Shown here piece after piece: positions 13,362 to 32,223 of a DNA stretch of 32,449 nt. The DNA comes from Bacteroidota bacterium (lineage in GTDB: Bacteria; Bacteroidota; Bacteroidia; Bacteroidales; Paludibacteraceae). Where the stretch lies: assembly GCA_017860335.1 (NCBI GenBank), contig JAFNAU010000003.1, positions 1-32,449 of the forward strand. The letters run 5' to 3'. A program made the translations under genes and the position numbers. Under the pieces are notes generated by a model. That model saw only the letters and a list, made by a program, of their open reading frames with translations. It did no database searches and was not told where the DNA came from. Every line of letters begins with the position of its first letter. Position 1 is the stretch's first letter.

Positions 13362-13401
13362 TTCTCAAATCAATAAAACATATCAGAATCAAATCTACAA
13401 T

Positions 13402-13587
13402 ATGAAAACACAAATTGAGAATACCCAAAAAAGACACTATGTTCGACCTGAATTAAGTCTTATTAAGCTAGATAATGAAATATCGTTAGCACTTGAGTCT
13501 TTTCCACCAGTTTTACCTGGAGAGGAGGATCTTTCAAAAACATCGGAATATTTCAATCATAATCCGTTTGAACCAAGAGTTTCTTGA
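13402..13587 (+). CDS. Small conserved-looking peptide of unknown function
   Basis: 61 aa MKTQIENTQKRHYVRPELSLIKLDNEISLALESFPPVLPGEEDLSKTSEYFNHNPFEPRVS; 40 bp after the 883-aa gene, same strand. Confidence 0.65.
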   Translation: MKTQIENTQKRHYVRPELSLIKLDNEISLALESFPPVLPGEEDLSKTSEYFNHNPFEPRVS

Positions 13588-13647
13588 TTCAAAGAATAAT
13601 AAAGTTGCTACTTTTTGAAACCAGAGGTAGAATATTTTCAAAAATGG

Positions 13648-13682
13648 ATCAAAAATACAAGATATTGCAACAAAATTGATAG
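13648..13682 (+). promoter_or_regulatory. PUL regulatory element, copy 2 (degenerate)
   Basis: ATCAAAAATACAAGATATTGCAACAAAATTGATAG; 27/35 match to copy 1 without gaps; TAAATTTA at 13703-13710 has the same 55-bp offset. Confidence 0.6.
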
Positions 13683-13753
13683 AAAATGATTTTTATTACC
13701 TCTAAATTTACACAAATATTTCAAACCAATTACTAATCAAATAATTAGATTTT

Positions 13754-15055
13754 ATGAAAAAATATTTTACAATTTTAGTTGGAGTTATATTAAGCTCATT
13801 TGTGGCAAATGCCCAAACAACAATTTATGATGGAGAAACTAATATTCCTGGAGGTTGGAGTATAGGTGGTGGATTTGGAACTGGATATGACGAAGGTCCT
13901 AACGGAGCTGATTGTCATAAGGGCGAAGGTTGGAAACTTTATGTCTCTGGAGAAATGGACATTATGAACGAAGGAGTGCCCAATCCGATTGTTTCGGGTG
14001 TAAATCTTACAGATAAGGTTGTTCGTCAAATAAGAAATACACACGGAGAAGGATGGGCAGGTGCAGGACTGGATATTTCCTCTTACAATGTAAATATATC
14101 ATTGACAAATAAATTCAGCGTGCTGATTAACAAACCGATCGAAGGCAATGTATCAATGGAGATAAATGGTGCTGGCGGACAAACAGTTTCACAGAATTAT
14201 ACAACTCCTGGTCAATGGCAAAAATTGACTTTCACTTTTGACCCAGCACAATTTACAGGGCATCCAACTACTTTGCTCATTCATCCTCACGATCAGGGAA
14301 GCTTTAGTGGTAATATCGTTACTTACTGGGACGAAGTTACGATGTATGATGCTTTGAACATTCCGACAGTTATTTACAATGGAAACGAAAAGATTGGAAG
14401 TCCAACAGCTCCTGGTTTCTTTGCTGATGGCTACTGGAGTCCGAATGGTGATTTGAGTGACATACTTCAAAATTCACCTTTCCCTAATCTGTTCAAAACG
14501 GGTATTAATACTTCTGATAATGTGATGCGATTTATAAGAGCCAAAGATGGAAGAAGTTGGTGTGGACTTGGGATTGGCGGACAGAATATTAATGTTGCCA
14601 GTACTCCGGAGTTTAGTGTAATGATTAATAAACCAGTCAGTGGCAAAGTGGGTATGAAGCTCGAGGGAGCTGGTTCACAAGAAATTTATGCTGACTACAC
14701 CACTCCTGGTCAATGGGAAAAATTAACTTTCACTTTTGACCCAGCGCAATTCACAGGAAACCCAAATACCATTATTATTTTCCCGCATTTTGAAGATACA
14801 AATCTTTCAGGTCAAAATTTAGCTGATCATATGCCGGTTTATATTGATAATGTGACAATGGGAGCTATATCAACATTTACGAACGTTGCAACAACATCTG
14901 CCAATGCCATTTCATACAAAATATACGACTTATCGGGGAATTATGTTGATGATAAAATCAACAAATTAAATAAAGGTATTTACATCAAGAAAATTTTATT
15001 TGACAATGGGAATATAGAAAGTGTAAAACTGATAATCAAAAATCAAAAATATTAA
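13754..15055 (+). CDS. Secreted protein with two copies of the PUL-shared module; short sorting-domain-like C-terminus
   Basis: 433 aa; N-terminus closely parallels the 883-aa protein (MKKYFTILVGVILSSFVANAQTTIYDGET); modules at residues ~22-200 and ~205-370. Confidence 0.75.
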   Translation: MKKYFTILVGVILSSFVANAQTTIYDGETNIPGGWSIGGGFGTGYDEGPNGADCHKGEGWKLYVSGEMDIMNEGVPNPIVSGVNLTDKVVRQIRNTHGEGWAGAGLDISSYNVNISLTNKFSVLINKPIEGNVSMEINGAGGQTVSQNYTTPGQWQKLTFTFDPAQFTGHPTTLLIHPHDQGSFSGNIVTYWDEVTMYDALNIPTVIYNGNEKIGSPTAPGFFADGYWSPNGDLSDILQNSPFPNLFKTGINTSDNVMRFIRAKDGRSWCGLGIGGQNINVASTPEFSVMINKPVSGKVGMKLEGAGSQEIYADYTTPGQWEKLTFTFDPAQFTGNPNTIIIFPHFEDTNLSGQNLADHMPVYIDNVTMGAISTFTNVATTSANAISYKIYDLSGNYVDDKINKLNKGIYIKKILFDNGNIESVKLIIKNQKY

Positions 15056-15141
15056 ACTAAAATAAATCTGAACACATTGCAATGTTGCAGATGTTTATTT
15101 CTATTTTGGTAATAAGTATCAATATTAAATCTAATAAAATC

Positions 15142-18100
15142 ATGAAGATTAAAAGCAAACTGAAAAGCAAAAATTTTCGGAAATTGAGTTTGTTGGTGTT
15201 TTATTGCACTATGAGTGCTGTAATAATGGCTCAGACAAAAACAGTTTCAGGGGTCGTGACCTCATCAGAAGATGGTGAGAAATTAATTGGTGTTTCCATT
15301 TTAGAAAAAGGGACAAGTACAGGAACTGTCACCGATGTAGATGGTAAGTATACTTTGACAAATAAAAGTGATATCTCGACATTAATATTCTCAATGGTGG
15401 GGATGAAAACAAAACAAGTTGCTGTTGGAAATAAAACTGTTATTAACGTGATTATGGAGCCTGATTCTAAACTTTTGGACCAGATAGTCGTAACAGGTTA
15501 TTCAAAACAAAAGAAAGCTGATTTGACCGGTGCAGTAACAGTTGTGGATGTTGACCAATTGAAGAAAATCACATCCAATAATCCTATTCAGGCACTACAA
15601 GGACGAGCACCAGGAGTAAACATTACAACAGATGGTTCACCAAGTGGATCGGGAACAACAGTTCGCATACGTGGTATAGGTTCAATCAATTCTAATATCG
15701 ATCCATTATATGTCATTGACGGAGTTGCCACTCAGGGTGGTATGCACGAAATGAACCCAAATGATATCGAGTCAATTCAGGTATTGAAGGATGCTTCTGC
15801 TGCATCAATATATGGATCAAAAGCAGCAAATGGAGTAATTATTATTACCACTAAAAAAGCAAAGGAAGGTCAGTTACAAGTGAATTTTGGTGCAAGAGCA
15901 AGTGCATCATGGTATGATTCGAAAATTCCAATGCTTGCCACTCAGGAGTATGGACAAGCTATGTGGCAAGCAAAAATAAATAGCGGTGACAAAAATCCCG
16001 ATGGATCGGGCTATGGATATAACTTTATTACTGGATATAATACAGATGGAACACCTAAATTGCTTCAGGTTATTGATCCAACTGCTGTTTATCTTGATAA
16101 CGATCCTACAAAATCGTATTATCACACAATGAAAATTTCCAATACCGATTGGTTCAATCAAATTACTCAAAAAGCCCTTTCACAATCTTATGATCTTTCA
16201 GTTCTTAGGGGAACGGATAAAGGAAATACCATGTTCTCTATGAACTATACAAATAATGATGGAATTATTAAGACAACCAATTTTGAACGTTTCTCTGCCC
16301 GTATTAATTCTGATACGAAATTGATAAATGGAAAATTGATAATTGGTGAGAATCTTTCTCTGAATAAAACAGGAGAAATCCAGGATCCGGGAGTTATGGA
16401 TCTGACTTTTCAAACACTACCTATTATTCCTGTACATACAGTAGATGGTATAGGATGGGGTGGACCGGTAGCAGGTATGAATGATCGTCAGAATCCTGTC
16501 AGACTATTGGAAGACAACAAACAAAACAAATATGATTATATGCGTTTGTTTGGGAATGTTTTTGCTGAATTGGAACTGATTAAGAATCTACATTTAAAAT
16601 CCAGTTTTGGTATTGACTACAGCGATTATTTCAAAAGAAGTATGCAATTGGCATACAGTTCCGGATATTTGAATAATAACCAAAATGGTGTGAACAATAA
16701 TCAGGGCCATTCCATAAAATGGACTTGGAGTAATACGTTGAATTATCAAAAAACTATTGGAAAAAATGCAGTTGATATTCTTCTTGGCACCGAAATGTAC
16801 AAACAACATGATGAAAGCTTTTGGGCACAACGTTTAGGTACAGGAAGTTATGTTAGCGAAGATCCTAATTACATGTATTTGGATGCTGGTACAGGCACTA
16901 TGTCACTTGGTGGTGGTGCTGCCGAAAACACATTATTGTCATATTTCGGTAAAGCCAACTATGTTTATGATCAAAAGTATCTGGCTTCGGTAACAGTTCG
17001 TCGCGACGGCTCTTCACGCTTCGGTAAAAACAATCAGTTTGGTACATTCCCCGCATTTTCATTGGGTTGGAGAATTAATCAGGAGAATTTCATGAAAGAT
17101 TTGTCTGCAATTTCTGACTTCAAATTGAGAGTTGGTTGGGGACAAACAGGTAATCAGGAAATTTCCAATGTGGGCACACGCTCAATTTATGTTACAGATT
17201 ATGCCGGAAATAATCCAACGTGGGATCCATCTACAAGTACAGCTTATGATATTACAGGGTCTACCACAGGTTCACTTCCTTCGGGATACCGCATTACTCA
17301 ACGTGGAAATGATAACCTAAAATGGGAAACTTCAACTCAAACAAATATTGGATTGGATTTTGGTTTTTTCAATCAGAAATTATACGGATCAATTGATTAT
17401 TTTATAAAAGACACCAAAGATTGCCTTATCAATCCTCCATATTTAGCTGCTATTGGAGAAGGTGGAAACCATTGGGTAAACGGAGCTTCAATACAAAACA
17501 AAGGATTTGAAGTATTGGTAGGTTATAGAAGTAAGATAGGATCTGACTTCAATTATGACATTACAGGTAACGCGGGTTCTTATATTAATGTTGTAACTTC
17601 TCTCCCTGCTGAGGTGGTTAATAATTATGGTGGAAATGGAACTACAGATAATATTCTGGGACATTCACTTGGTACATTTTATGGCTATGTAGCTGATGGT
17701 TTATTTAAAACACAAGATGAAGTTAATAATTCGGCAGAACAAAATGGAAAAGCACTCGGTAGGATTCGATACCGCGATATAAATGGCGATGGTGTAATTA
17801 ACGATAAAGACCGAACATGGATTGGTAATCCTAATCCGGATTTCACTTATGGATTAAATATAAATATGGAATACAAAGGATTCAATTTAACTTTATTCTT
17901 TCAGGGAGTTGGAAGAGTTGATTTGAATGATTATGCTGTGAAAAGTTTTACAGATTTCTGGAGTGTTCGAGAAACAGGATCAAATAAAGGTATCCGTTTA
18001 TTAAACGCATGGACACCTACCAACTCAAGTTCTACAATTCCAGCATTAACTTCCACAGACAGTAACAATGAATCTAGATTTTCAACTTATTACATCGAGA

Positions 18101-18318
18101 ATGGATCCTATTGTAAATTGAAAAATGTAGAATTGGGTTATAATGTCCCTCAAAAAGCATTGAAAGTGATACATCTAAGCAGAGTCCACTTATATGTTAG
18201 CGGTCAAAATATTTTCACAGTCAAAAGTAAAAGTTTTACAGGTATAGATCCTGAACGGCCAGATTTTGCATATCCATTGCCAATTACTTTTACTTCAGGC
18301 ATTAACGTTACATTCTAA
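15142..18318 (+). CDS. SusC/RagA-family TonB-linked outer membrane transporter (track start 15082; Met at 15142 preferred)
   Basis: CarboxypepD_reg-like 'KTVSGVVTSSEDGEKLIGVSILEKGTSTGTVTDVDGKYTL'; 'VVTGYSKQKKADLTGAVTVV'; 'ALQGRAPGVNI'; 'LYVIDG'; 'IESIQVLKDASAASIYGSKAANGVIIITTKK'. Confidence 0.95.
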   Translation: MKIKSKLKSKNFRKLSLLVFYCTMSAVIMAQTKTVSGVVTSSEDGEKLIGVSILEKGTSTGTVTDVDGKYTLTNKSDISTLIFSMVGMKTKQVAVGNKTVINVIMEPDSKLLDQIVVTGYSKQKKADLTGAVTVVDVDQLKKITSNNPIQALQGRAPGVNITTDGSPSGSGTTVRIRGIGSINSNIDPLYVIDGVATQGGMHEMNPNDIESIQVLKDASAASIYGSKAANGVIIITTKKAKEGQLQVNFGARASASWYDSKIPMLATQEYGQAMWQAKINSGDKNPDGSGYGYNFITGYNTDGTPKLLQVIDPTAVYLDNDPTKSYYHTMKISNTDWFNQITQKALSQSYDLSVLRGTDKGNTMFSMNYTNNDGIIKTTNFERFSARINSDTKLINGKLIIGENLSLNKTGEIQDPGVMDLTFQTLPIIPVHTVDGIGWGGPVAGMNDRQNPVRLLEDNKQNKYDYMRLFGNVFAELELIKNLHLKSSFGIDYSDYFKRSMQLAYSSGYLNNNQNGVNNNQGHSIKWTWSNTLNYQKTIGKNAVDILLGTEMYKQHDESFWAQRLGTGSYVSEDPNYMYLDAGTGTMSLGGGAAENTLLSYFGKANYVYDQKYLASVTVRRDGSSRFGKNNQFGTFPAFSLGWRINQENFMKDLSAISDFKLRVGWGQTGNQEISNVGTRSIYVTDYAGNNPTWDPSTSTAYDITGSTTGSLPSGYRITQRGNDNLKWETSTQTNIGLDFGFFNQKLYGSIDYFIKDTKDCLINPPYLAAIGEGGNHWVNGASIQNKGFEVLVGYRSKIGSDFNYDITGNAGSYINVVTSLPAEVVNNYGGNGTTDNILGHSLGTFYGYVADGLFKTQDEVNNSAEQNGKALGRIRYRDINGDGVINDKDRTWIGNPNPDFTYGLNINMEYKGFNLTLFFQGVGRVDLNDYAVKSFTDFWSVRETGSNKGIRLLNAWTPTNSSSTIPALTSTDSNNESRFSTYYIENGSYCKLKNVELGYNVPQKALKVIHLSRVHLYVSGQNIFTVKSKSFTGIDPERPDFAYPLPITFTSGINVTF

Positions 18319-18338: not shown

Positions 18339-20033
18339 ATGAAAAAAATAGCATATATAATTGTAATAGCTGTGGCTTTAACGTCATGTACCGACTTTCT
18401 CGATCTACAGCCCAAAGCCATCCTTAGCGAAGCTCAAGTAGCAGGAGCTGATAATGCCGATAAATTTGTCATAGCTGCTTATGCAAGTTTGGGAAATGAT
18501 CACTATAATATTCCTTTTAGTCTCTGGCCGTATGGTAATGTTCGTTCGGGTGATGCTTATAAAGGCGGTCGCGATGAAGCCGATATTCAGGCTTTCTACT
18601 TCATGGAAACGTTTAAAAACATGAGAACTGATTTTGGAGAAGTAGATGGTATCTGGTATAATATCTATGTAGGAATATCACGTGCTAATGCAGCGCTGAG
18701 AAATATTAACACACTTACTGAAGCAGAATATCCAAATATGAAAGTTAGACAAGCTGAGATGCGTTTTCTACGGGGGCACTGGTATTTTATGTTGAAAGAA
18801 ATGTTTAAGTATATTCCTTATATTGATGAAACTGTTGCTGTGACTGATTATGAGAAAATATCAAACAGAGCATTGACCAATGATCAACTTTGGGATAAAA
18901 TTGCCGATGATTTCGAATTTGCAGCTAAATATCTTCCAGCAGTTCAACCTGAGATAGGGCGTGCGAGCAGATATGCAGCACAAGCCTATCTTGCTAAAAC
19001 AAGACTTTATCAGGCTTACGAGCAGGACGAACAAAACAATGTGATTAACATCAACAAAGATAAACTGAATCAGGTCGTTACTTTGTGTGATTCTGTTATG
19101 TCATCAACAGCAAGATTGGAAACCGATTTTGGTTATAATTTTATGCCGGGTGCATATGAAAATGGAAACGAATCTCTTTTTGCTGTTCAATATTCACACG
19201 ATGATGGAACAAGTAAAGGCCGTTTAAATTTTGGTGATATTTTGGCAACACCTCAAGGATTGGGTTGTTGCGATTTCCACAAACCAAGTCAAAATCTCGC
19301 AAATGCCTATAAAACAGGAGCAAACGGTTTGCCAATGTTTGACACATTCAATGATACTGATCTGGATTTGACAGTCAATACTGTTGACCCACGTCTGAAC
19401 CATACCATTGCAATTCCAGGACATCCTTGGAAATACGATCCGACATTATTGTACGATAAGAGCTGGAATAGGACTCCGGATGTATATGGTGTTTATGCTT
19501 CGCTGAAAGAAAATGTATCGCCTAAATGCGATTGCTTTATTCACCTTGATCCATTTTTTGGAAATACCAAGAACCGCATTATCATACGATATGCCGATGT
19601 TATATTGTTTAAAGCCGAAGCATTGATTGAACTTGGTCGGGAATATGAAGCATTATCATTGATTAATCAAATCAGAACTCGTGCCAGAAGAAGTACCGGA
19701 TTGTTGAAAATGTCGAACGGAAATTACGAATCAAATTTCAATGTTAGTAACTATATACCAGGAACAAACTGTGTGTGGACACAGGATTATGCTCGTCAGG
19801 CACTTCGCTGGGAACGTCGTCTGGAATTTGCTATGGAAGGAAACCGTTTCTTTGACCTCGTTCGTTGGGGAATTGCTGATTCGTACATGAATGCTTATTT
19901 TACAAAGGAAAAGACAAAAAGAACTTATTTGAAAGATGGATTATTCACTAAAAACAGGGATGAGTATTTGCCAATTCCTTTTAACCAAATCAACTTCAGC
20001 AAAGGAACATATAAGCAAAATTACGGATATTAA
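18339..20033 (+). CDS. SusD/RagB-family nutrient-binding outer membrane lipoprotein
   Basis: 564 aa; 'LTSCTDFLDLQPKAIL' lipobox; 'AEMRFLRGHWYFMLKEMFKYIPY'; 'ALRWERRLEFAMEGNRFFDLVRWGIAD'; 'YLPIPFNQIN'. Confidence 0.95.
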   Translation: MKKIAYIIVIAVALTSCTDFLDLQPKAILSEAQVAGADNADKFVIAAYASLGNDHYNIPFSLWPYGNVRSGDAYKGGRDEADIQAFYFMETFKNMRTDFGEVDGIWYNIYVGISRANAALRNINTLTEAEYPNMKVRQAEMRFLRGHWYFMLKEMFKYIPYIDETVAVTDYEKISNRALTNDQLWDKIADDFEFAAKYLPAVQPEIGRASRYAAQAYLAKTRLYQAYEQDEQNNVININKDKLNQVVTLCDSVMSSTARLETDFGYNFMPGAYENGNESLFAVQYSHDDGTSKGRLNFGDILATPQGLGCCDFHKPSQNLANAYKTGANGLPMFDTFNDTDLDLTVNTVDPRLNHTIAIPGHPWKYDPTLLYDKSWNRTPDVYGVYASLKENVSPKCDCFIHLDPFFGNTKNRIIIRYADVILFKAEALIELGREYEALSLINQIRTRARRSTGLLKMSNGNYESNFNVSNYIPGTNCVWTQDYARQALRWERRLEFAMEGNRFFDLVRWGIADSYMNAYFTKEKTKRTYLKDGLFTKNRDEYLPIPFNQINFSKGTYKQNYGY

Positions 20034-20060: not shown

Positions 20061-21146
20061 ATGAAACGACATATTATAAAAACATTATATCTTGCAGTTC
20101 TGACTATTGTTTTCACCTCGTGTTACGACCGTGATATTCCAAACATCGAACCAAACTTACCAGCAGTGAGCAATTTGCAATATACTCTCGTCGGAGATAG
20201 TGTAAAGCTAACATGGTCACTGCCTCTGGGCCATGATAGCCTGAGTGCTTCTATCTCAACTCTTAATGGAACGGTTTTAGTTTCGGGGAATCCAACTTCG
20301 TATACTTTTGGTTTGGTTGAAGTACTTAAAGAATACAGCTTTACTGTGAAGATTAAAGATACAAAAGGAAATTTATCCTTGGGTCAGACAGTTCGATTGA
20401 CTCGACCGGGTGCAAAAATAACTAAATTTGCAATTGACACAATAAATGGTGTGATTGACAACCTGATGAGAGAAATCATAATTTATCTTCCTGTTGGAAC
20501 AAACGTCAAAACATTAAAACCGACTGTTGAATTTACCAGTGGCGCAACATTAAGTCCTGCTTCAGGCACTACGGTTGATTTCACCAATCCGGTAACATAT
20601 ACTATAGCCAAAGACAATATGACGTTTACCTATACAGTAACAGCAGTAGTGGCGCAAAAACCACTTGATTATGTGCTGCTTTATAATGGTGAAAATGTTG
20701 CCCCACTTTGGGATAACATAGCTGCAACCGTTAATAATGGTGTAGCTAATCCGATTACAAATGGCATCAACAATACCTTGACCTGCTCTTCAATTGTTCG
20801 CAACAGCATAGTTGGAGATGCTGGCGGTCGTCCATGGTCAGGTGGTGCACTTTGGAATGCGTATAAAGTAAATATTGATCCTGCTATTTACAATAAATTC
20901 TCAGTAATGGTATTGAAAGAATCTGCAGGAACAGTTCAATTGGAAATTCAAAATGCAGATGGCTCTGTAAAAGATTGGTTGAAAACTGAATACACTACTG
21001 TTGGAAAATGGCAGGAACTTACATTTGACATTCCATCAGGTCGTACTGCTTTCATAAACAACATATTAATTGCACCACATTGTCAGGATGTAATTGATCA
21101 TACACAAACTATTTATTGGGATGAACTAAAGGTGTATAAAAAATAA
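20061..21146 (+). CDS. Surface glycan-binding-protein-like lipoprotein with one C-terminal copy of the PUL-shared module
   Basis: 361 aa; 'FTSCYDRDIP' lipobox; Ig-like N-terminal part; residues ~205-361 align with modules of the 883- and 433-aa proteins (LLYNGEN...NKFSVMVLKE..GTVQLEIQ...TTVGKWQELTFDI...YWDELKVYK); position after SusD. Confidence 0.75.
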   Translation: MKRHIIKTLYLAVLTIVFTSCYDRDIPNIEPNLPAVSNLQYTLVGDSVKLTWSLPLGHDSLSASISTLNGTVLVSGNPTSYTFGLVEVLKEYSFTVKIKDTKGNLSLGQTVRLTRPGAKITKFAIDTINGVIDNLMREIIIYLPVGTNVKTLKPTVEFTSGATLSPASGTTVDFTNPVTYTIAKDNMTFTYTVTAVVAQKPLDYVLLYNGENVAPLWDNIAATVNNGVANPITNGINNTLTCSSIVRNSIVGDAGGRPWSGGALWNAYKVNIDPAIYNKFSVMVLKESAGTVQLEIQNADGSVKDWLKTEYTTVGKWQELTFDIPSGRTAFINNILIAPHCQDVIDHTQTIYWDELKVYKK

Positions 21147-21311: not shown

Positions 21312-23615
21312 ATGAAAATAATCGAAGGTGTCTCAACACAAAATGAAAAAAAATGTATTTGCACATTAGGACTTCTGTTTTTTTTAACAACATTGACTAC
21401 ATGGCCTTTATTTGCACAATATAATGAAGTATACAGGCCTCAGTATCATTTCTCTGCAAACACTGGTTGGATAGGTGATCCCGATGGGTTAGTGCGTTAC
21501 AACAACAAGTACCATCTTTTTTGGTGGGGACATGCCACATCAAGCGATTTAGTTTACTGGACCGAAAAAAACTGGCCTATGCAAGGCGACAACAGTACGT
21601 TCGATTATTACTCCGGTAGCATGGTTGTTGATGCGAAAAACACCGCAGGCTTAAAATCAGGTACGTATGCACCAATGATTGCCCTCTTTACAAATCACAA
21701 CAAAACAACAGGTCTGGAAGCACCTGCTTTATCATTCAGCAATGATTATTTGTCTGATTATACAAATTTTTATCTTTATAATCGCGGAACTCCGCTAATG
21801 ACAACGGCTAATGGATTCAGAGATCCGAGCGTATTCTGGGATTCAGCTAATAATCAATGGGTAATGTCCATTGCTGCCAATGCCAGTAATAAAACGGTAC
21901 AGTTCTATTACTCTACCAACCTGAAGACATGGAGAATATTGAATTCATTTGGTCCTCTTGGCACAAAAGAAAACTGGTGGGAATGTCCGGATATGTTTCA
22001 ACTACCAGTAGATGGGAATAGTAATAATAAAAAATGGGTACTGATAGTCAGTGCAAGTGCCAAAGTTCAATATTTTCTTGGTGATTTCGATGGCTTGTAT
22101 GGATTTGATATTGATCCGACTTGTGATTCGTACCTGCGTAATGGAACAGGTATTCAGGGAACTGTATTTGCCGATTTTGAAACAACCGCTTATACAGGTT
22201 GGACAGCAACCGGAACAGCCTTTGGGTCAGGTCCTGCCAGTGGAAATCTGAGTGGACAACAATCTGTTTTCGGTTATCTGGGAAATAAGCTAGCTAACTC
22301 ATTCAATAATGGAGATGGTTCTACCGGAACTCTCACATCTGCGTTATTTACGATAAGTAAAAATTGCATCAACTTCCTGATTGGGGGTGGAAATAATGCC
22401 GGACTAACCTGCATTAATCTGATTGTTAATGGTTCTGTGGTGCAATCGACAACAGGAAGAAACGAAGAGGTGTTGAAATGGGCCGGTTGGAATGTTACAC
22501 AATGGATAGGTAAAACGGCTCAGATTCAGATTGTTGATAACAGTACCGGAGGTTGGGGGCATATTAATATTGATCATATTGTATTTGCTGATGCGTTGTG
22601 GAATAATAATATCGAACATTCTTTAGTTGCCGATTATGGTAGTGATTTTTATGCTGCCAGAACTTTTCGAGATTACGACAACGCAGAAAACCGTACCGTT
22701 ATGATGGGTTGGATGGGTAACTGGAATTATGCCAACTCAACACCAACCAGCTGGGGACGAGGTCACGAATCATTGCCTCGCGAATTGTCCCTGAAAACTT
22801 TTGCGGATGGCATTCGGTTGGTACAACAACCAATTCCTGCATTGAAGAAACTGAGAAACGACAGTGTAATTGTGACAAATAAATCGGTCGTAAATACACA
22901 GACACTGACAGAGTTTACGCCCTTATACAATTATTATGAAATTGATGCAGTATTCAATGTTACCACGGGAGCTAATTTTGGTTTAAACCTTTGTGTGAGT
23001 GGAACTAATAAAGTAGTATTGGGGTATGATGCCAGCAGTTCTAATTTATACCTCGACAGAACAAAGTCAGGTAATGTGGCATTTAGTTCGGCTTTCCCCA
23101 ATGTAATTACTACTCCACTTTTGCCTGATAATGGGCAGATTAAATTGCACATCTATATTGATCAATCATCCATTGAAGTCTTTGCTAACGACGGGGTTCG
23201 GGTTATGAGCTCCTTGATTTATCCTGACACTTCGAGTAAATTAATTCAGCTTTTTTCTACTAATGGGACAACCAATGTGCAAAGTCTGAAAGCTTATAAT
23301 TTGAAGTCCATCTGGAAAACTGTACCCTCTGCAGTACCATTAACCTTCGATACGGGAAACAAGGAAATAAGCCTGTATCCCAATCCTGTAAAGAGAGGAC
23401 AGGCAATAACAATAAACTTTTTAAATAAAAATTTTACAGGAACAAATGTTAAACTGAAATTATTTACATTACAAGGAAGATTAGTGTCAGAAGAAAATTA
23501 CTCGGCAGAGGCTAATTCTGTTTTTAATGTTAATAATGATTTAGCGGCAGGTGTTTACATCATCACAGTAGAGTCTGAAGGTTACACGAAGTCTTTGAAA
23601 CTTGTTGTCCAATAA
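21312..23615 (+). CDS. GH32 family fructanase-like enzyme, atypical active-site segment, inserted beta-sandwich-like domain, T9SS-type C-terminal sorting domain
   Basis: 'YRPQYHFSANTGWIGDPDGLV', 'FRDPSVFW', 'WWECPDMFQLP'; inserted 'DFETTAYTGWTATGTAFGSGPASG...INIDHIVFAD'; C-terminal 'ISLYPNPVKRGQAITINF...AAGVYIITVESEGYTKSLKLVVQ'. Confidence 0.9.
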   Translation: MKIIEGVSTQNEKKCICTLGLLFFLTTLTTWPLFAQYNEVYRPQYHFSANTGWIGDPDGLVRYNNKYHLFWWGHATSSDLVYWTEKNWPMQGDNSTFDYYSGSMVVDAKNTAGLKSGTYAPMIALFTNHNKTTGLEAPALSFSNDYLSDYTNFYLYNRGTPLMTTANGFRDPSVFWDSANNQWVMSIAANASNKTVQFYYSTNLKTWRILNSFGPLGTKENWWECPDMFQLPVDGNSNNKKWVLIVSASAKVQYFLGDFDGLYGFDIDPTCDSYLRNGTGIQGTVFADFETTAYTGWTATGTAFGSGPASGNLSGQQSVFGYLGNKLANSFNNGDGSTGTLTSALFTISKNCINFLIGGGNNAGLTCINLIVNGSVVQSTTGRNEEVLKWAGWNVTQWIGKTAQIQIVDNSTGGWGHINIDHIVFADALWNNNIEHSLVADYGSDFYAARTFRDYDNAENRTVMMGWMGNWNYANSTPTSWGRGHESLPRELSLKTFADGIRLVQQPIPALKKLRNDSVIVTNKSVVNTQTLTEFTPLYNYYEIDAVFNVTTGANFGLNLCVSGTNKVVLGYDASSSNLYLDRTKSGNVAFSSAFPNVITTPLLPDNGQIKLHIYIDQSSIEVFANDGVRVMSSLIYPDTSSKLIQLFSTNGTTNVQSLKAYNLKSIWKTVPSAVPLTFDTGNKEISLYPNPVKRGQAITINFLNKNFTGTNVKLKLFTLQGRLVSEENYSAEANSVFNVNNDLAAGVYIITVESEGYTKSLKLVVQ

Positions 23616-23624
23616 ATGTGAAGT

Positions 23625-25151
23625 ATGAAGAAGCTGATTACTATATTGATGTTTTTCTTGAGTCTGACAAGCTGTAGACTTGCCGGTAAAGACACTTATT
23701 TTCTGACTACAGAAAGCACTCCAAAGGTTCATTATTCATCAATCGATCACAATGTCGGTGCACCTTCGTCATTTGTTTTACAGAATGGTATTTACTCTGT
23801 CTTCTATCAGGATTTCCATCTAGATAAAAACAAGAAAAACACCATATACAAGACAACCAGTACCGATTTGATTCATTGGGGGAAATCGGAGAAAGTTATT
23901 TTTTCGAACAAAGCTTTGCCTGTATTGTATGCCAATGTGGTTATTGATACTCAAAACACGATCGGTTTAATAACTAAAGCAATATCACCACTTGTTGCTT
24001 TAATATTGACCGAACAGAAAAGAATAAGTACTGGTTTTCAGCTTTATTATAGTGCAAATCAGGGTAAAACATGGAAGTACATCAGCAAGATTGATTTTCC
24101 CGGAGTTCTGACACCTGATTCAAAGCCAGCAATCATTTGGAACAGTTATACACGAAAATGGACAATGACATTGGTTGAGAACCAATCAATTAAAATTTAT
24201 TCGTCGACTGATTTTAGAAAATGGGAATTTGAAAGCACCTTCGAAAAAGATGCCCAGTACCGGGATAATATATGGCTGAAGGCAACGCTTTTCCCTGTTA
24301 ATGACGGGGCAAACTGGGTGTTACTGATAGATCAGGAATTTCCGAATCCACGAGATGGATCGTCTATTCAGTACCTCATTGGCTATTTTGATGGTAAATC
24401 GTTCAATACAAAAATTACAGCCAAATCGCAATGGTTTGATTATGGAAAAGATAATATCTATAATGTTGTGTGTAGTGGCTTGCCTGAAAATGCTCAATCA
24501 ACAGTTATTGGACTTAAAAACAACATTGATTATGCATTAATCGGTAGTATGAAACCTTACTGGGGAAGTTTTACTTTTCCACGAACACTACATACCGATA
24601 AGTATTCAGGAGAAGATATTCTAGCTTCTGAACCGATTCAGGTAATAGAAAAAGTGAAAACTAAAAGTCAGACATTGAACAATCTGAATGTCAATGAAAC
24701 TGTAGACATCAGCCATGTAATCACTATTCCGCTTACTCCATCATTCATTGTTCTGAAATTCGACACGAAGCAAATGACAAGAATGACTTTTCCATCAAGG
24801 TTTGGAATTCAGTTCGAGAATGATATAGCAGAAAAGCTAATCGTCGGTTACGATGCTTTCAAAGGAGAATATTTTGTTGACAGAAATAATTTTTCAATAG
24901 CAAAAGATAACTCCCAGTTCAGAGGCATTGATATTATTTCGTCTTTTCATTCCGACTCGGAGTTGGTTCTTAAAATGATCATGGACAATTCATCAATCGA
25001 ATTATTTGTAGAAAATGAAAAACAGGTCTTGACAGAAAATTATTTTACCGAACACAAACTTACTAAGGTAAAGCTTTTTGCCGAAAATGGAATTATCAAA
25101 ACAAAAGAATTGACAATAAGCAATTTAAACCCAATTCAAGAAAGCTACTAA
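23625..25151 (+). CDS. GH32-fold lipoprotein lacking all three catalytic acidic residues (predicted pseudoenzyme)
   Basis: 508 aa; 'LSLTSCRLAG' lipobox; GH32 framework kept ('STDLIHWGKSEKVIFSN', 'VVIDTQNTIGL', 'WLKATLFPVNDGANWVLLI', 'QYLIGYFDGKSFN', 'SSIELFVENEKQVLT') but WMNDPNG, RDP and EC motifs are replaced. Confidence 0.8.
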   Translation: MKKLITILMFFLSLTSCRLAGKDTYFLTTESTPKVHYSSIDHNVGAPSSFVLQNGIYSVFYQDFHLDKNKKNTIYKTTSTDLIHWGKSEKVIFSNKALPVLYANVVIDTQNTIGLITKAISPLVALILTEQKRISTGFQLYYSANQGKTWKYISKIDFPGVLTPDSKPAIIWNSYTRKWTMTLVENQSIKIYSSTDFRKWEFESTFEKDAQYRDNIWLKATLFPVNDGANWVLLIDQEFPNPRDGSSIQYLIGYFDGKSFNTKITAKSQWFDYGKDNIYNVVCSGLPENAQSTVIGLKNNIDYALIGSMKPYWGSFTFPRTLHTDKYSGEDILASEPIQVIEKVKTKSQTLNNLNVNETVDISHVITIPLTPSFIVLKFDTKQMTRMTFPSRFGIQFENDIAEKLIVGYDAFKGEYFVDRNNFSIAKDNSQFRGIDIISSFHSDSELVLKMIMDNSSIELFVENEKQVLTENYFTEHKLTKVKLFAENGIIKTKELTISNLNPIQESY

Positions 25152-25261: not shown

Positions 25262-27028
25262 ATGAAAAATACACTCTTTCTTATTATCATGGTGCTTATA
25301 TCGATTAATATGAGTTGCACTTCTCAGAAAAAATCGTCCGGCAATAATATATCTTCCGATTATCAAATCAAGTCATCCTATTTGCTTATTCCTGTGGAGG
25401 AAAAAGCACCGGAGGTAAAAATCATAGCAGCAGCTTCTGATACGACACACCAAACAGCTTTTGATGTGCATTTAGCTGTAGATCAGATTGATTATTGGGT
25501 GCCGGTAGATGTGAAAAAATGGAAAACCCAACTACTTACACTTACTTTTCAGGGATTAACAAAACCTGTGTTGGGGAGCAAAGAAATCAAACAATCTGAC
25601 AAATTTGAATTTGAGTACAATGAAACGTATCGTCCTCAGTTTCATTTTTCTCCTGAATACGGCTGGATGAATGATCCCAATGGAATGGTATATCTCGACG
25701 GCGAATACCACCTTTTTTATCAGTACAATCCTTACGGTTCGATGTGGGGAAATATGTCGTGGGGGCATGCCGTAAGCACCGACCTTACTTCGTGGACTTA
25801 CCTGCCGGTGGCACTTAGGCCCGATAGTCTGGGTGAAATATTCTCCGGCAGTGCCGTGATTGACAAGGACAATACAGCCGGATTTGGTAAAGATGCGATG
25901 ATAGCAATTTTCACCAGCGCAGGCAAAGTTCAGGCGCAATCTATCGCTTACAGCACGGACAAAGGACGTACATTTTCAAAATATGCTCAAAATCCGGTTT
26001 TGCCAAATCCGGGAATTACCGATTTTCGTGACCCGAAAGTATCGTGGAACGAACAATCCGGGCAATGGGTTATGGCACTTGCCACGAAGCAAACAGTCAC
26101 TTTCTTTGGCTCGCATAACCTGAAGAACTGGACTAAACTGAGTGAATTTGGCGAAGGTATTGGTTCGCACGCAGCTGTGTGGGAATGTCCCGATTTATTT
26201 CCGATGACTTATCAGGGAAAAACTAAATGGGTACTGCTGGTGAGCTTAAATCCGGGGGGACCAAACGGCGGCTCAGCCACTCAGTATTTTATTGGAGACT
26301 TTGACGGAAAAACATTTACACCCGACGCATTGCCTTATCCGCTTTGGCTGGATTACGGGCGCGATAATTATGCCGGTGTAACGTTCAACAATATCCCGCA
26401 GTCTGATGGCCGCCGCATTTTTATGGGTTGGATGAGCAACTGGGATTACGCTAATCAGATTCCATCGAAACATTTCAGGAGTGCAAATACAACTGCCCGC
26501 GAACTCACAATTGTGAATAACGGCAAACATCTGATACTGAGCAGCTATCCGGTAAAAGAAATAAATAAACTGAAAAGGGAAATTTCAGAGATGCCTGGTC
26601 TTCATGTCAACAAAGAATATGTAATAACTGAATTGTTGAAAAAAAACGAGGGGTGTTTTGAAATTGAAATGACAATTCGTCCTGAAAATGCACGGATATT
26701 TGGTTTTAGTTTGAATAATGCTAAAAACGAAACATTGAAATTTAATTTCGATAACACAACCGGATTTTTCAGCATAGACCGCAAACAGAGCGGTTTGACC
26801 GATTTCAATGACCGCTTTGCAATGGGAATGAATGCCCCGCTTATAAAGAGAGACAGTTACAAAGTTCGTTTACTGGTAGATAAAGCTTCAGCAGAAATAT
26901 TCATCAACGATGGTGAAATCACATCGACAACGCTGTTTTTCCCTTCGGAATGGATGAACCAACTCAGATTTTTCAGTCAGACCGGAACATTCAGTGTAGA
27001 AAACATTAAAATTAATAACTTAAAATAA
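25262..27028 (+). CDS. GH32 family fructan beta-fructosidase/levanase-like lipoprotein
   Basis: 588 aa; 'NMSCTSQKK' lipobox; N-terminal domain then 'YRPQFHFSPEYGWMNDPNGMVY', 'DFRDPKVSW', 'WECPDLF'; C-terminal 'ASAEIFINDGEITSTTLFFP'. Confidence 0.95.
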   Translation: MKNTLFLIIMVLISINMSCTSQKKSSGNNISSDYQIKSSYLLIPVEEKAPEVKIIAAASDTTHQTAFDVHLAVDQIDYWVPVDVKKWKTQLLTLTFQGLTKPVLGSKEIKQSDKFEFEYNETYRPQFHFSPEYGWMNDPNGMVYLDGEYHLFYQYNPYGSMWGNMSWGHAVSTDLTSWTYLPVALRPDSLGEIFSGSAVIDKDNTAGFGKDAMIAIFTSAGKVQAQSIAYSTDKGRTFSKYAQNPVLPNPGITDFRDPKVSWNEQSGQWVMALATKQTVTFFGSHNLKNWTKLSEFGEGIGSHAAVWECPDLFPMTYQGKTKWVLLVSLNPGGPNGGSATQYFIGDFDGKTFTPDALPYPLWLDYGRDNYAGVTFNNIPQSDGRRIFMGWMSNWDYANQIPSKHFRSANTTARELTIVNNGKHLILSSYPVKEINKLKREISEMPGLHVNKEYVITELLKKNEGCFEIEMTIRPENARIFGFSLNNAKNETLKFNFDNTTGFFSIDRKQSGLTDFNDRFAMGMNAPLIKRDSYKVRLLVDKASAEIFINDGEITSTTLFFPSEWMNQLRFFSQTGTFSVENIKINNLK

Positions 27029-27035
27029 TTAACTC

Positions 27036-28379
27036 ATGTCAAATAATAAATATCTCTATTGGATAACCTTTGTAGCCATTAACGGTGGTTTACTTTTTGG
27101 GCTTAATATGGCCGGCATTTCAGGCGCAGTAGATATGATTAAAGGCGAATTTTCGCTCACCGACAGTGGACTGGGTACAGTGGCTGCACTGCTTACATTC
27201 GGTTGTCTGATTGGTGCATTATTTACCGGAACATTTACCGAAAAATTCGGACGGAAAAAAGTAATGATAATCACTGCGGTACTTTACATCATTTCTGCTT
27301 TTGGCTGTGCGTTGGCAGAATCGGCAACCATACTTATTGTATTTCGCGTATTATCCGGTCTGGCGGTGGGAGCTACTTCGGTAGTTGCACCAATGTACAT
27401 ATCCGAAATTGCACCAGCACACAATCGCGGAAGATTGGTATCACTCAATCAGTTTGCCATTACCATTGGTATTGTGCTGGCTTATATTTTTGATTATCTG
27501 CTCATTGGGTTTGGCGATAATGCATGGCGGTATATGTTGGCGATTCCGGGATTTTTTGGTGTTCTGTTTTTCCTGTTCCTGATTGTAAAATTTCCCGAAA
27601 GTCCGAGATGGTTATTGGCTCACGCACGCAGGGACGAAGCCATTAAAGTTCTGAACAGCATTGGCGGAACAGCATTGGTGACCGAAGAATTGCCTGCCAT
27701 GGAAAGTACGCTGATAGCCGAGCAAAAAAAGAATAAAATGTCGATTGGTGAATTATTTAAAGGTAAAACGGGTAAGCTCGTTTTAATAGGTACAATCATC
27801 GCTGCTCTTCAGCAAATCACCGGAATAAATGCAGTGATTATGTTTGCTCCTGATATTTTTCAGGCAGCCGGTTCTGCCAAGGGTGACTCGGTGATGCAGG
27901 CAATGATTGTAGGGTTAGTCAACTTCTTGATGACAATAGTGGCATTGTGGCTGGTTGATAAGCGAGGCCGCAAAACCTTGTTGCTCTGGGGAGCTGTGGG
28001 GATGATAATTTCATTAGCGTATCTCGCATTCGATTTCTCAAAACCGGTTCAAAACGGCGCCGGTGTTTTAATTGCCTTGTTGGTGTATATTTCGTTTTTT
28101 GCTGCTTCGTTTGCACCTGTTATGTGGGTAATTATATCCGAAATTTATCCTAATCGTATCAAAGGAGTTGCCATGTCGTTCTCCACAGCGGTAAGTTGGT
28201 TATGTACGTTTCTCACCGTCTATTTTGCACCTGTCATTCACGGTGCGTTTGGATTACAGTATTTATTCGGGATTTTTTGTCTGTTCAGTATTGTTGCTTT
28301 CGTTTTTGTGAAATTCTGGATACCCGAAACCAAAGGAAAATCATTGGAGCAGATAGAACTGGAACTTGGATTGAAATAA
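27036..28379 (+). CDS. MFS sugar porter family transporter (likely fructose/hexose)
   Basis: 447 aa; 'GRKKVMI', 'PESPRWLLAHARRDEA', 'QQITGINAVIMFAPDIF', 'PETKGKSLEQIE'. Confidence 0.92.
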   Translation: MSNNKYLYWITFVAINGGLLFGLNMAGISGAVDMIKGEFSLTDSGLGTVAALLTFGCLIGALFTGTFTEKFGRKKVMIITAVLYIISAFGCALAESATILIVFRVLSGLAVGATSVVAPMYISEIAPAHNRGRLVSLNQFAITIGIVLAYIFDYLLIGFGDNAWRYMLAIPGFFGVLFFLFLIVKFPESPRWLLAHARRDEAIKVLNSIGGTALVTEELPAMESTLIAEQKKNKMSIGELFKGKTGKLVLIGTIIAALQQITGINAVIMFAPDIFQAAGSAKGDSVMQAMIVGLVNFLMTIVALWLVDKRGRKTLLLWGAVGMIISLAYLAFDFSKPVQNGAGVLIALLVYISFFAASFAPVMWVIISEIYPNRIKGVAMSFSTAVSWLCTFLTVYFAPVIHGAFGLQYLFGIFCLFSIVAFVFVKFWIPETKGKSLEQIELELGLK

Positions 28380-28406: not shown

Positions 28407-29291
28407 ATGGAAAATACAATAGTAGGAATAGGCGAAATATTATGGGATGTTTTCCCGAAAGGAAAAGTACTGGGCGGTGCTCCTGCCAATTTTGCCTATC
28501 ATGTGTCGCAGTTTGGATACGAAGGATATGCCGTAAGTGCAATTGGCAACGATGAGCTGGGACAGGAAATTAAAACTTGTCTGGATCAGCGAAACCTACA
28601 TTATCTGATCGAAACTACACCTTACGCTACCGGTACTGTGCAGGTTACGCTTTCGGGAAATGGAATTCCACATTATGAAATTTGTGAAAATGTGGCATGG
28701 GATAATATCCCCTTTACCGACGAAATGGAAGCATTGGCACGTAAAACCATGACAGTATGTTTCGGGTCATTAGCCCAACGAAGCAGCGTTTCAAGAACAA
28801 CAATAAATCGGTTTCTGGATTGTTTGCCCGATACTGCACTAAAAATATTCGATATTAATCTCCGGCAACATTTTTATACATTAGAACTGATCGAACATGC
28901 ATTAAATCGTTGTAATATATTGAAAATAAATGACGAAGAAATACTTCTGGTTGGAGAACTGTTTGGCTGGCAATCCAAAACCGAACTGGAAATTTGTAAC
29001 CAACTCTTACATAGCCCAAATCTGGACATTGTGGTGTTGACCAAAGGAGCAGAAGGAAGCTATGTTGTGACTAATAACGAAACCTCCTTCAAACCTACAC
29101 CTTTGGTAGAAGTTGCTGATACAGTTGGTGCCGGTGACTCATTTACAGCTGGTTTTGTAGCCGCAATTCTGAACGGACAAAGCATTAGTCAGGCACATGA
29201 ACTGGCAGTGGATGTATCTGCTTTTGTTTGTACACAAAATGGTGCCATGCCAATCCTACCCGAAAATTTATTGTCGCGGGTAAAGAAATGA
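28407..29291 (+). CDS. PfkB-family carbohydrate kinase, likely fructokinase
   Basis: 294 aa; 'GIGEILWDVFPKGKVLGGAPANFAYH', 'DTVGAGDSFTAGFVAAIL'. Confidence 0.92.
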   Translation: MENTIVGIGEILWDVFPKGKVLGGAPANFAYHVSQFGYEGYAVSAIGNDELGQEIKTCLDQRNLHYLIETTPYATGTVQVTLSGNGIPHYEICENVAWDNIPFTDEMEALARKTMTVCFGSLAQRSSVSRTTINRFLDCLPDTALKIFDINLRQHFYTLELIEHALNRCNILKINDEEILLVGELFGWQSKTELEICNQLLHSPNLDIVVLTKGAEGSYVVTNNETSFKPTPLVEVADTVGAGDSFTAGFVAAILNGQSISQAHELAVDVSAFVCTQNGAMPILPENLLSRVKK

Positions 29292-29404: not shown

Positions 29405-29412
29405 TACTTTTG
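29405..29412 (+). promoter_or_regulatory. Candidate -7 box TACTTTTG for the regulator gene
   Basis: TAnnTTTG match; overlaps the ORF track's start at 29410, supporting a downstream start. Confidence 0.45.
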
Positions 29413-29457
29413 ATACAATATATGGATGCTGAACTTTCACTGAAATCCTCAAATGCC

Positions 29458-32223
29458 ATGAAACGGATTTTCATATACCTGCTTTTCGCAGGACTTATTT
29501 TTTCTCAGTCCTGTACAACCAGATCTGACCATGCGAAAATAATCGGAGTTTCTCAATGCAGTGATGATGCATGGCGGAGAACCATGAACAGCGAAATGAA
29601 ACGTGAAGCTTCGTTCAATCCAGGTTTTGAAATCAGAATAAAAACAGCGCACGACAGCAATCAGCAACAAATTCGTGATATTGAAAGCTTTATTGCTGAT
29701 GGCGTTGATTTGATTATCGTTTCTCCTAATGAAGCCATTCCACTGACTCCGGTTATCGAAAAAGCAATGCAGGCAAACATACCCGTTGTATTGATTGACC
29801 GGAAAATCAGTTCGGGAAAATATACAGCATTTGTTGGAGCCGATAACATTCAGATTGGAAAAGAAGTAGGCACTTACGCAGCAAATCTGTTGAATGGCAA
29901 AGGAAATATTGCTGAAATATGCGGACTGGACGGCTCAACTCCGGCTTCTGAACGTCACAATGGATTTATGAGTGTTATTCGGAAATATCCGGGAATTAAA
30001 GTCGTATATAAGTCAAATGGTGATTGGTTGCGCAAACAGGCCAAAGAAAAAATGACAGAAGCGCTGCAAACCATGATACCAATTGACCTTGTATTTGCAC
30101 AGAATGATGAAATGGCGACAGGTGCCCGGGAAGCCTTGCGGGTTACTACCGGGATAAAGAAACCCATCTTACTCGGAATTGATGCACTTCCTGGTACTAA
30201 CGGAGGCATTCAAAAAGTTCTGAATGGCATTATAGATGCTACTTTCATTTATCCCACCGGAGGCGAAAAAGCTATTCAGACAGCCTTACACATTTTAAAT
30301 AATGAACCTTACGACAGAGAAAATATCCTTTACACTGCTGTTGTTGACAAAACGAATGCGAGGGTGCTGAAACTGCAAACGGATCAGATTATTCAACACC
30401 AAAATCGTATTGGGCAACTGAATACAGTACTGAATCAAAATTTAGCAAAGTTCAGTACGCAACAAAATTTATTATTTTTATCTTTTGCTGTTTTATTTCT
30501 CATTTCTGTACTTTTGATACTTCTTATACGCTTATACAGACACAAGAACAAGGTCAATGAAGAACTGAGACTTACCAACATTGCCATTAACAAGCAAAAA
30601 GAAGAATTGTCAGAGCAACGTGATCAGTTAATCGTTCTTTCTAGAAATCTGGAAGAAGCAACACAGGCTAAATTGGTTTTTTTTACGAACATATCGCATG
30701 AATTCCGCACTCCGTTAACCCTTATTCTCGGACCGTTAGATAGTCTGATAGAAAAGGAGTCACTCAGCTCTAACGGCAAACGTCTCCTCCAACTCATGCG
30801 CAAGAATGTTCATGTATTGCTGAAACTTATTGAACAGATTACAGAATTCAGGAAATACGAGAACGGAAAGATGCAGATGTACTTTACACTGACTGATCTG
30901 AAAAGTTTTATCTCCGAAATATGTGATTCATTTGTCGAATTTGGGAAAAAGAAACGTATAAATTTCTCATTTAAAGCCTCTGATGATGATTACACCTTAT
31001 GGTTCGATTCTGATAAAATGGAAAAAATCTGCTATAATCTGTTGTCAAACGCATTTAAATTCACCAGCGAAAACGGGCAAATCGATGTACGCTTGACAAA
31101 GATTCTGAAAAATGATGAGGAATTTGCACAAATAACCGTTTCAGATGATGGTGCTGGTATTCCCGAAAATCATGTACACAGTATCTTCGAACGATTTTAT
31201 AAAGTGGATGACCGTGCGCTTGGTTCCGGAATCGGGTTACATTTAACCAAAGTCCTTGTTGAACTGCATAACGGTGAAATTAACGTAGAAAGCACAGTAG
31301 GAAAGGGTACAAAATTCAGTGTACTGATACCTTTCAAACAAAAGGAAATTCCTGTTGTTGAACAATTTCCAATCCTGAATACGTTAGAGAGTAAGCAGGA
31401 TGATATATTGATACTGGATGGTGAAAATGAAGAAGAACAGGTTGCTGATTTGCAAACAGATAAACCATTAGTTCTTTTAGTAGAAGATAATGTAGATGTT
31501 CGGGTGTATATTAAAAGTTTGTTGATTGATAATTTTGAAATAATCGAAGCTCAGAATGGCCGGATTGGGTTATTAAAAGCAATGAAGTTTGTTCCGGAAC
31601 TTATCATCAGTGATGTGCAAATGGATATTATGGACGGTTTTGAACTCTGTAAACAAATTAAGGAAAATCTCTCAACCAGCCATATTCCAGTTATTCTTCT
31701 TACGGCTTATTCTCTTGAAGAACAACGTGCAGTTGGCTTTGAAAGTGGTGCCGATGCGTATATTCCTAAACCATTCAATGAAAATCTGCTTAAAATCCGT
31801 GTGCGCAAGTTGATAGAAAACCGGGAAAAAATCAACAACTATTTCCAGAAAAACCTGACTTTTGGCGAACGTAAAGAAACTGTGGCTGAAATAGATAAAT
31901 CTTTTATCACAAAATTCCGTAAGCTGGTTGAAGAAAGGCTGACAGACACTGAGTTAAATGTGGATGAAATTGGTAAAAATCTGGGACTTTCGCGTGTTCA
32001 GGTATATCGCAAAATAAAATCGTTGACCAATTACGCTCCGAATGAACTGGTGCGTATCATTCGATTGAAAGCTGCCGAGCAAATGATAATTAACTCGGAT
32101 AAAAGTGTTTCAGAAATTGCTTATGATACAGGTTTCTCTACTCCTTCTTATTTTACCAAATGCTTCAAAGAATATTACAATGAAAGCCCCAGCGATTACA
32201 CTAAAAGAATTAAACAAAAATAA
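29458..32223 (+). CDS. Hybrid two-component system regulator (periplasmic-binding-protein sensor, histidine kinase, receiver, AraC-type HTH); ATG at 29458 preferred over the track's TTG at 29410
   Basis: 'IIGVSQCSDDAWRRTMNSEMKREA...VDLIIVSPNEAIPLTPVIEKA' PBP-type sensor; TM segment; 'FTNISHEFRTPLTLIL' H-box; 'GSGIGLHLTKVL'; receiver 'LIISDVQMDIMDGFELC'; AraC HTH 'VSEIAYDTGFSTPSYFTKCFKEYYNESPSDY'. Confidence 0.95.
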   Translation: MKRIFIYLLFAGLIFSQSCTTRSDHAKIIGVSQCSDDAWRRTMNSEMKREASFNPGFEIRIKTAHDSNQQQIRDIESFIADGVDLIIVSPNEAIPLTPVIEKAMQANIPVVLIDRKISSGKYTAFVGADNIQIGKEVGTYAANLLNGKGNIAEICGLDGSTPASERHNGFMSVIRKYPGIKVVYKSNGDWLRKQAKEKMTEALQTMIPIDLVFAQNDEMATGAREALRVTTGIKKPILLGIDALPGTNGGIQKVLNGIIDATFIYPTGGEKAIQTALHILNNEPYDRENILYTAVVDKTNARVLKLQTDQIIQHQNRIGQLNTVLNQNLAKFSTQQNLLFLSFAVLFLISVLLILLIRLYRHKNKVNEELRLTNIAINKQKEELSEQRDQLIVLSRNLEEATQAKLVFFTNISHEFRTPLTLILGPLDSLIEKESLSSNGKRLLQLMRKNVHVLLKLIEQITEFRKYENGKMQMYFTLTDLKSFISEICDSFVEFGKKKRINFSFKASDDDYTLWFDSDKMEKICYNLLSNAFKFTSENGQIDVRLTKILKNDEEFAQITVSDDGAGIPENHVHSIFERFYKVDDRALGSGIGLHLTKVLVELHNGEINVESTVGKGTKFSVLIPFKQKEIPVVEQFPILNTLESKQDDILILDGENEEEQVADLQTDKPLVLLVEDNVDVRVYIKSLLIDNFEIIEAQNGRIGLLKAMKFVPELIISDVQMDIMDGFELCKQIKENLSTSHIPVILLTAYSLEEQRAVGFESGADAYIPKPFNENLLKIRVRKLIENREKINNYFQKNLTFGERKETVAEIDKSFITKFRKLVEERLTDTELNVDEIGKNLGLSRVQVYRKIKSLTNYAPNELVRIIRLKAAEQMIINSDKSVSEIAYDTGFSTPSYFTKCFKEYYNESPSDYTKRIKQK

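Follow-up and report, generated by a model that had tools for sequence, protein, structure and literature searches.

Related GH32 proteins and pseudoglycosidases

The closest homologues of the protein described here, P0001, are exo-inulinase/exo-levanase-like GH32s of Bacteroidota (L009, L040, L042 and L043). These share with P0001 the two-domain fold, a full-length alignment at approximately 30% identity and secretion as lipoproteins. However, they keep the catalytic acids D, D and E as well as subsite -1, and the clade of P0001 has none of these acids. BT1760 of the B. theta levan utilisome is, like P0001, a GH32 lipoprotein encoded beside SusC/SusD, but it is an active enzyme exposed on the surface, and most of its levan affinity comes from the active site (PMC7618045). 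As the BT1760 mutant D42A demonstrates, levan binding can survive in a dead GH32, although in this case the rest of the pocket is retained (PMC7618045).

Plant defective invertases, e.g. tobacco Nin88, resemble P0001 in the GH32 fold, in the lack of sucrose hydrolysis (predicted for P0001) and in a proposed accessory role. However, their catalytic triad is reported never to be affected (PMC3713406); the plant type combines an intact triad with altered sucrose-stabilising residues, whereas in P0001 the triad is lost. The Cluster 4 'GH32' proteins of butyrate producers are assigned to GH32 and are inactive on FOS, inulin and levan, but keep the triad and RDP and are without only other residues such as NDPNG (PMC7833758), which again differs from P0001. 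The pseudoglycosidases YKL-39, klotho and CyRPA have a glycosidase fold, have lost catalysis and display a binding or receptor role; they belong to other GH families, and none is mentioned for GH32 in the same source (PMC7828330). In a literature search of partial coverage, no naturally occurring GH32 clade that has lost all three acids was found described.

The switch from enzyme to binding or regulatory protein is thus known in other glycosidase families, and the inactive GH32s of plants are described as triad-keeping. A selected bacterial GH32 clade without the triad and subsite -1, found beside active relatives, is a natural test of the role of a dead CAZyme in sugar uptake. Automatic annotation would score its gene as a fructanase.

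Open reading frame and predicted fold of P0001

P0001 is encoded in a genome of the family Paludibacteraceae, within a stretch of 32,449 nucleotides that was analysed as a whole and is termed the window. The following features are found in the gene:

23625..25151, + strand: GH32-fold pseudoenzyme lipoprotein P0001, 508 aa (open reading frame, Pfam, phmmer, AlphaFold2 model, Foldseek)
23625..23675, + strand: signal peptide II with lipobox, lipid Cys17, followed by RLAGKD with no acids at +2 to +6 (sequence)
23730..24614, + strand: five-bladed propeller, Glyco_hydro_32N (Pfam, model)
24657..25118, + strand: C-terminal beta-sandwich, Glyco_hydro_32C (Pfam, model)

The reading frame starts with ATG and continues unbroken for 508 codons, and both the intact frame and the lipobox noted in the initial annotation are present. 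A frameshift or assembly artefact is ruled out, as orthologues are intact in independent assemblies. Pfam gives significant matches to Glyco_hydro_32N (1.3e-24, profile positions 1–301 of 307) and Glyco_hydro_32C (1.1e-13). In a phmmer search against solved GH32 structures the nearest relatives are the exo-inulinase 8i12 and the endo-levanase 9h8i. An AlphaFold2 model built with 27 aligned sequences has a mean pLDDT of 85.7 and a pTM of 0.86, and a Foldseek search with this model finds GH32 structures that match over the whole length, the best being 8i12 (E = 2.5e-34, TM = 0.80). The predicted structure therefore recovers the GH32 fold end to end, and propeller and sandwich persist as first proposed.

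Loss of the catalytic triad and of subsite -1

A MAFFT alignment compared P0001 with 51 homologues in which D, D and E are all present. The three catalytic positions are replaced as follows:

23748..23765, + strand: H42-P47, HNVGAP replacing GWMNDP; nucleophile Asp to Ala46 at 23760-23762 (MAFFT alignment)
24117..24128, + strand: DSKP replacing DFRDP; Arg deleted, stabiliser Asp to Lys167, Asn in orthologues (MAFFT alignment)
24273..24293, + strand: WLKATLF replacing WECPDLF; acid/base Glu to Leu218 at 24276-24278; WLKAT invariant in both full orthologues (alignment)

The same pairings, A46, K167 and L218, are recovered by phmmer against the solved structures and by a profile search that included the orthologues, and they agree with the three substitutions initially read by eye. 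The alignment adds a refinement at the RDP motif, where a one-residue deletion changes F-R-D-P to S-gap-K-P in P0001 and to F-gap-N-P in the orthologues, such that both the Arg and the stabiliser Asp are lost. This pattern is found in none of the 51 homologues but recurs in the two full-length orthologues, at 53–54% identity. No replacement acids are found at the triad alignment columns of P0001.

Eight residues hydrogen-bond fructose at subsite -1 in a B. longum GH32, namely Asn, Asp, Gln, Trp, Ser, Arg, Asp and Glu (PMC7833758). By alignment, P0001 keeps one of them, Gln62, and the two full-length orthologues keep none, the Gln position being occupied by Lys. Across the 51 active-like homologues, 93 columns reach at least 93% invariance, and 38 of these family-invariant columns are retained in every one of the three full pseudoenzymes. 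Most of the retained residues are Trp, Gly, Phe or Asp in the propeller and Asp, Ser, Glu or Phe in the sandwich. The lost columns cluster in WMNDPNG, the loop-1 Trp, SWGHA, SGS, RDP, ECPD and the NW of GWMSNW. As aligned, P0001 displays a dismantled fructose site that goes beyond three point losses and is deeper than the initial annotation described, and the protein is predicted to be non-catalytic as a fructosidase.

Orthologues and origin

Full-length orthologues with the same substitutions, apart from Asn at the stabiliser position, are found in G147 (54% identity) and G183 (53%), and a C-terminal fragment is situated at a contig end in G221. HNVGAP and WLKAT are common to P0001 and both full orthologues. 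With the source genome, the pseudoenzyme is present in 4 of 358 genomes of the family, the other three being different species of Paludibacteraceae. It was not found in the seven other genomes of the source genus, and draws from the order (295 genomes), class (296) and phylum (398) gave active-type relatives only, or nothing.

In the tree the three full pseudoenzymes form one clade (support 100/100) with a very long stem, and the group is rare and of single origin. The clade is placed beside the active-type L009, L040, L042 and L043 (support 96/91); this placement is tentative and is held lightly because the stem branch is long.

The fructan utilisation locus and a proposed accessory role

The genes surrounding P0001 are listed here, all from domain searches except where further evidence is given:

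15082..18318, + strand: SusC-type TonB-dependent transporter
18339..20033, + strand: SusD
20061..21146, + strand: SusE-position lipoprotein (DUF4945), candidate surface glycan-binding protein
21312..23615, + strand: GH32 with triad, inserted domain and T9SS tail (P0003); WIGDPDG, not WMNDPNG (also alignment)
25262..27028, + strand: canonical GH32 lipoprotein with DUF4980; triad and subsite -1 intact (also alignment)
27036..28379, + strand: MFS sugar porter (also best matches)
28407..29291, + strand: PfkB kinase, best named match fructokinase (also best matches)
29410..32223, + strand: hybrid two-component regulator with periplasmic sugar-binding sensor domain

P0001 is situated between the T9SS GH32 and the DUF4980 GH32, and the combination of SusC/SusD, GH32s, sugar porter, fructokinase and hybrid two-component sensor supports the original assignment of the locus as a fructan PUL. 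In G147 the whole gene set is syntenic, but the pseudoenzyme lies ahead of the T9SS GH32; in G183 it is found between a canonical GH32 and a LamG-GH32. G034 carries the whole syntenic set minus the pseudoenzyme, and no remnant of the gene was found there. The pseudoenzyme is therefore optional. In G034 a thioredoxin/AhpC-like open reading frame (L124:11988-12683) fills the slot between the two GH32 genes.

Several other features of these loci were observed. The T9SS GH32 at 21312-23615 is without the loop 1 that carries the subsite -1 Gln and Trp, and a large domain is inserted in it. 'GH32' proteins that share its Asn-to-Gly change are inactive on FOS, inulin and levan (PMC7833758), thus the substrate of the T9SS GH32 is also uncertain. 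Two secreted proteins upstream of SusC (10710-15055) and the SusE-position lipoprotein (20061-21146) have similar domains and cross-match at approximately 30% identity, and a weak CBM_4_9 match is present in 13754-15055; these are possibly copies of a carbohydrate-binding module repeated within one PUL.

P0001 is best explained as an accessory lipoprotein that has the GH32 fold but no catalysis and serves a fructan utilisation locus of Bacteroidota, a reading that, taken with all its parts, we regard as about evenly balanced between right and wrong. On a single occasion, prior to the divergence of the present species, an active GH32 gene would have lost the nucleophile, the stabiliser, the acid/base and almost all of subsite -1. 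Purifying selection would then have retained the gene, probably for a job other than cutting. The protein would most likely be tethered to the outer membrane at its periplasmic face. A partly rebuilt pocket face, formed by HNVGAP, NIWLKAT, DQEFxNPRDGSS, KNNxDY and GSMKPxWGSFT, would hold either an oligosaccharide that has been imported or a portion of a partner protein, and P0001 would store, present or regulate substrate for the active GH32s or for the sensor.

A different role, in which P0001 partners with or allosterically activates one of the active GH32s of its PUL, by hetero-dimerisation or by guiding the placement of that enzyme, appears unlikely. The pseudoenzyme adjoins an active-type GH32 in all four genomes, though the order varies, and an indirect activation of cell-wall invertases is reported for the inactive GH32 Nin88 of tobacco (PMC3713406). 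However, the neighbouring active GH32s occur without the pseudoenzyme in many genomes. Strict co-occurrence with P0003 fails in both directions: G034 has a P0003 orthologue (67%) but no pseudoenzyme, and in G183 the pseudoenzyme is present with no P0003 detected.

Cellular location

Surface lipoproteins of Bacteroidota have acidic residues in the vicinity of their lipid cysteine (PMC5080379). In the source genome 13 of 14 SusD proteins show at least two acids at +2 to +6. Among BamD proteins from relatives, taken as inner-facing controls, 2 of 27 do so, the N-termini having been picked by an automatic lipobox rule of which a few may be wrong picks. The three pseudoenzymes continue after the lipid cysteine with RLAGKD, KIKGKD and KKNGND, and none has Asp or Glu at +2 to +6. 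No other GH32 lipoprotein in the set has two acids there. The absence of the acidic export signature is an indirect indication that the pseudoenzyme, like these other GH32 lipoproteins, probably faces the periplasm, although the export rule may not fit this lineage and the SusD N-termini may be acidic for reasons other than surface export. The initial annotation had proposed a surface protein that binds or presents fructan, or else an accessory to the adjacent GH32s, the latter being possible. The N-termini do not support the surface location, and fructan binding is unsupported as stated, with seven of the eight subsite -1 residues lost in P0001 and all eight in the orthologues. As these residues are gone, fructan binding by the ancestral pocket is unlikely; fructans may possibly bind through a rebuilt pocket or another surface of P0001.

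A surface protein that binds levan or inulin outside the cell, feeds SusCD and fills the GH32 slot of a utilisome would agree with the gene lying where the PUL encodes its surface proteins. The GH32 endo-levanase of Bacteroides is a surface lipoprotein of the levan utilisome; levan binding persists in its D42A mutant and also involves a secondary site off the active site (PMC7618045). The missing acids in all orthologues, the loss of subsite -1, given that the active site of the known levanase provides most of the affinity (PMC7618045), and the presence in the PUL of a SusE-type candidate binder make this role rather improbable.

Conserved segments of the former pocket

Two segments of P0001 are conserved specifically among the pseudoenzymes:

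24330..24362, + strand: D236-S246, DQEFPNPRDGS, conserved loop aligned to the SxNPGGPNGGS loop of active GH32s (alignment)
24543..24575, + strand: G307-T317, GSMKPYWGSFT, conserved segment (alignment)

HNVGAP, NIWLKAT, NPRDGSS, GSMKP and WGSFT are invariant in all three pseudoenzymes and align to pocket-lining segments of active GH32s. Loop 1 and the SGS and RDP regions vary freely. With three full sequences, 48 of 76 positions are invariant in the pocket segments and 91 of 230 elsewhere in the propeller (p = 5e-4), a comparison that includes two rim segments chosen after viewing the alignment. With the canonical motif segments only, the numbers are 33 of 59 versus 106 of 247 (p = 0.08). These counts give a weak indication that the pocket face is conserved, and a partly rebuilt cleft is plausible from the alignment. 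As to class, P0001 may be a GH32 that has discarded the retaining machinery and rebuilt the cleft with new conserved residues for a different ligand or partner, or even a different reaction, on the periplasmic side of a fructan locus; we put this forward as a tentative possibility.

A repurposed enzyme, with new catalytic residues in the old cleft (e.g. D236, E238 and D244) and a different reaction, seems very unlikely. Four non-canonical residues, D236, E238, R243 and D244, do not vary among the orthologues and align to the pocket-rim loop of GH32, but only three sequences are compared and these residues may be structural or ligand-binding.

Selection versus decay

The dN/dS between the pseudoenzymes of G147 and G183 is 0.11 (bootstrap 0.06–0.16; dN = 0.20, dS = 1.81), in the range of purifying selection, although dS is near saturation for the full-length pairs. 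The unsaturated pair G147 and G221, compared over 152 C-terminal codons, gives 0.19 (0.06–0.55), and the neighbouring T9SS GH32 gives 0.16 for the same pair. The pseudoenzyme diverges faster than its PUL neighbours: its identity between the source genome and G147 is 54%, below that of the T9SS GH32 (82%), the other GH32 (79%), SusD (69%) and SusC (61%).

In G147 all that is left of a decayed GH32 is a 3′ stub of 37 residues (L060:13519-13629), 65% identical to a GH32 relative in G183 and situated directly upstream of the intact pseudoenzyme. This stub is an internal control, in that real GH32 decay is visible beside a gene that has not decayed. That P0001 is itself in recent or slow decay, still open by chance, would agree with its rare and patchy presence (4 of 358 genomes), fast divergence and absence from the syntenic G034 locus, but is scarcely credible and is rejected on the shared substitutions and intact frames at 53% identity, the dN/dS of 0.11 and the contrast with the stub. 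The loss of catalytic residues, common to the orthologues and combined with a well-folded model and low dN/dS, supports the initial view of a selected loss of catalysis, with the inactivity itself predicted from the residues.

Two further observations concern GH32-related genes. In G211 (L126:9192-11366) a run of GH32-type genes is found in one PUL, one of which (725 aa) is without the simple triad motifs scanned and is possibly another divergent or inactive GH32. The only other GH32N match in the source genome (G000:C236, L065) is a GH43 protein beside an alpha-galactosidase-like gene.
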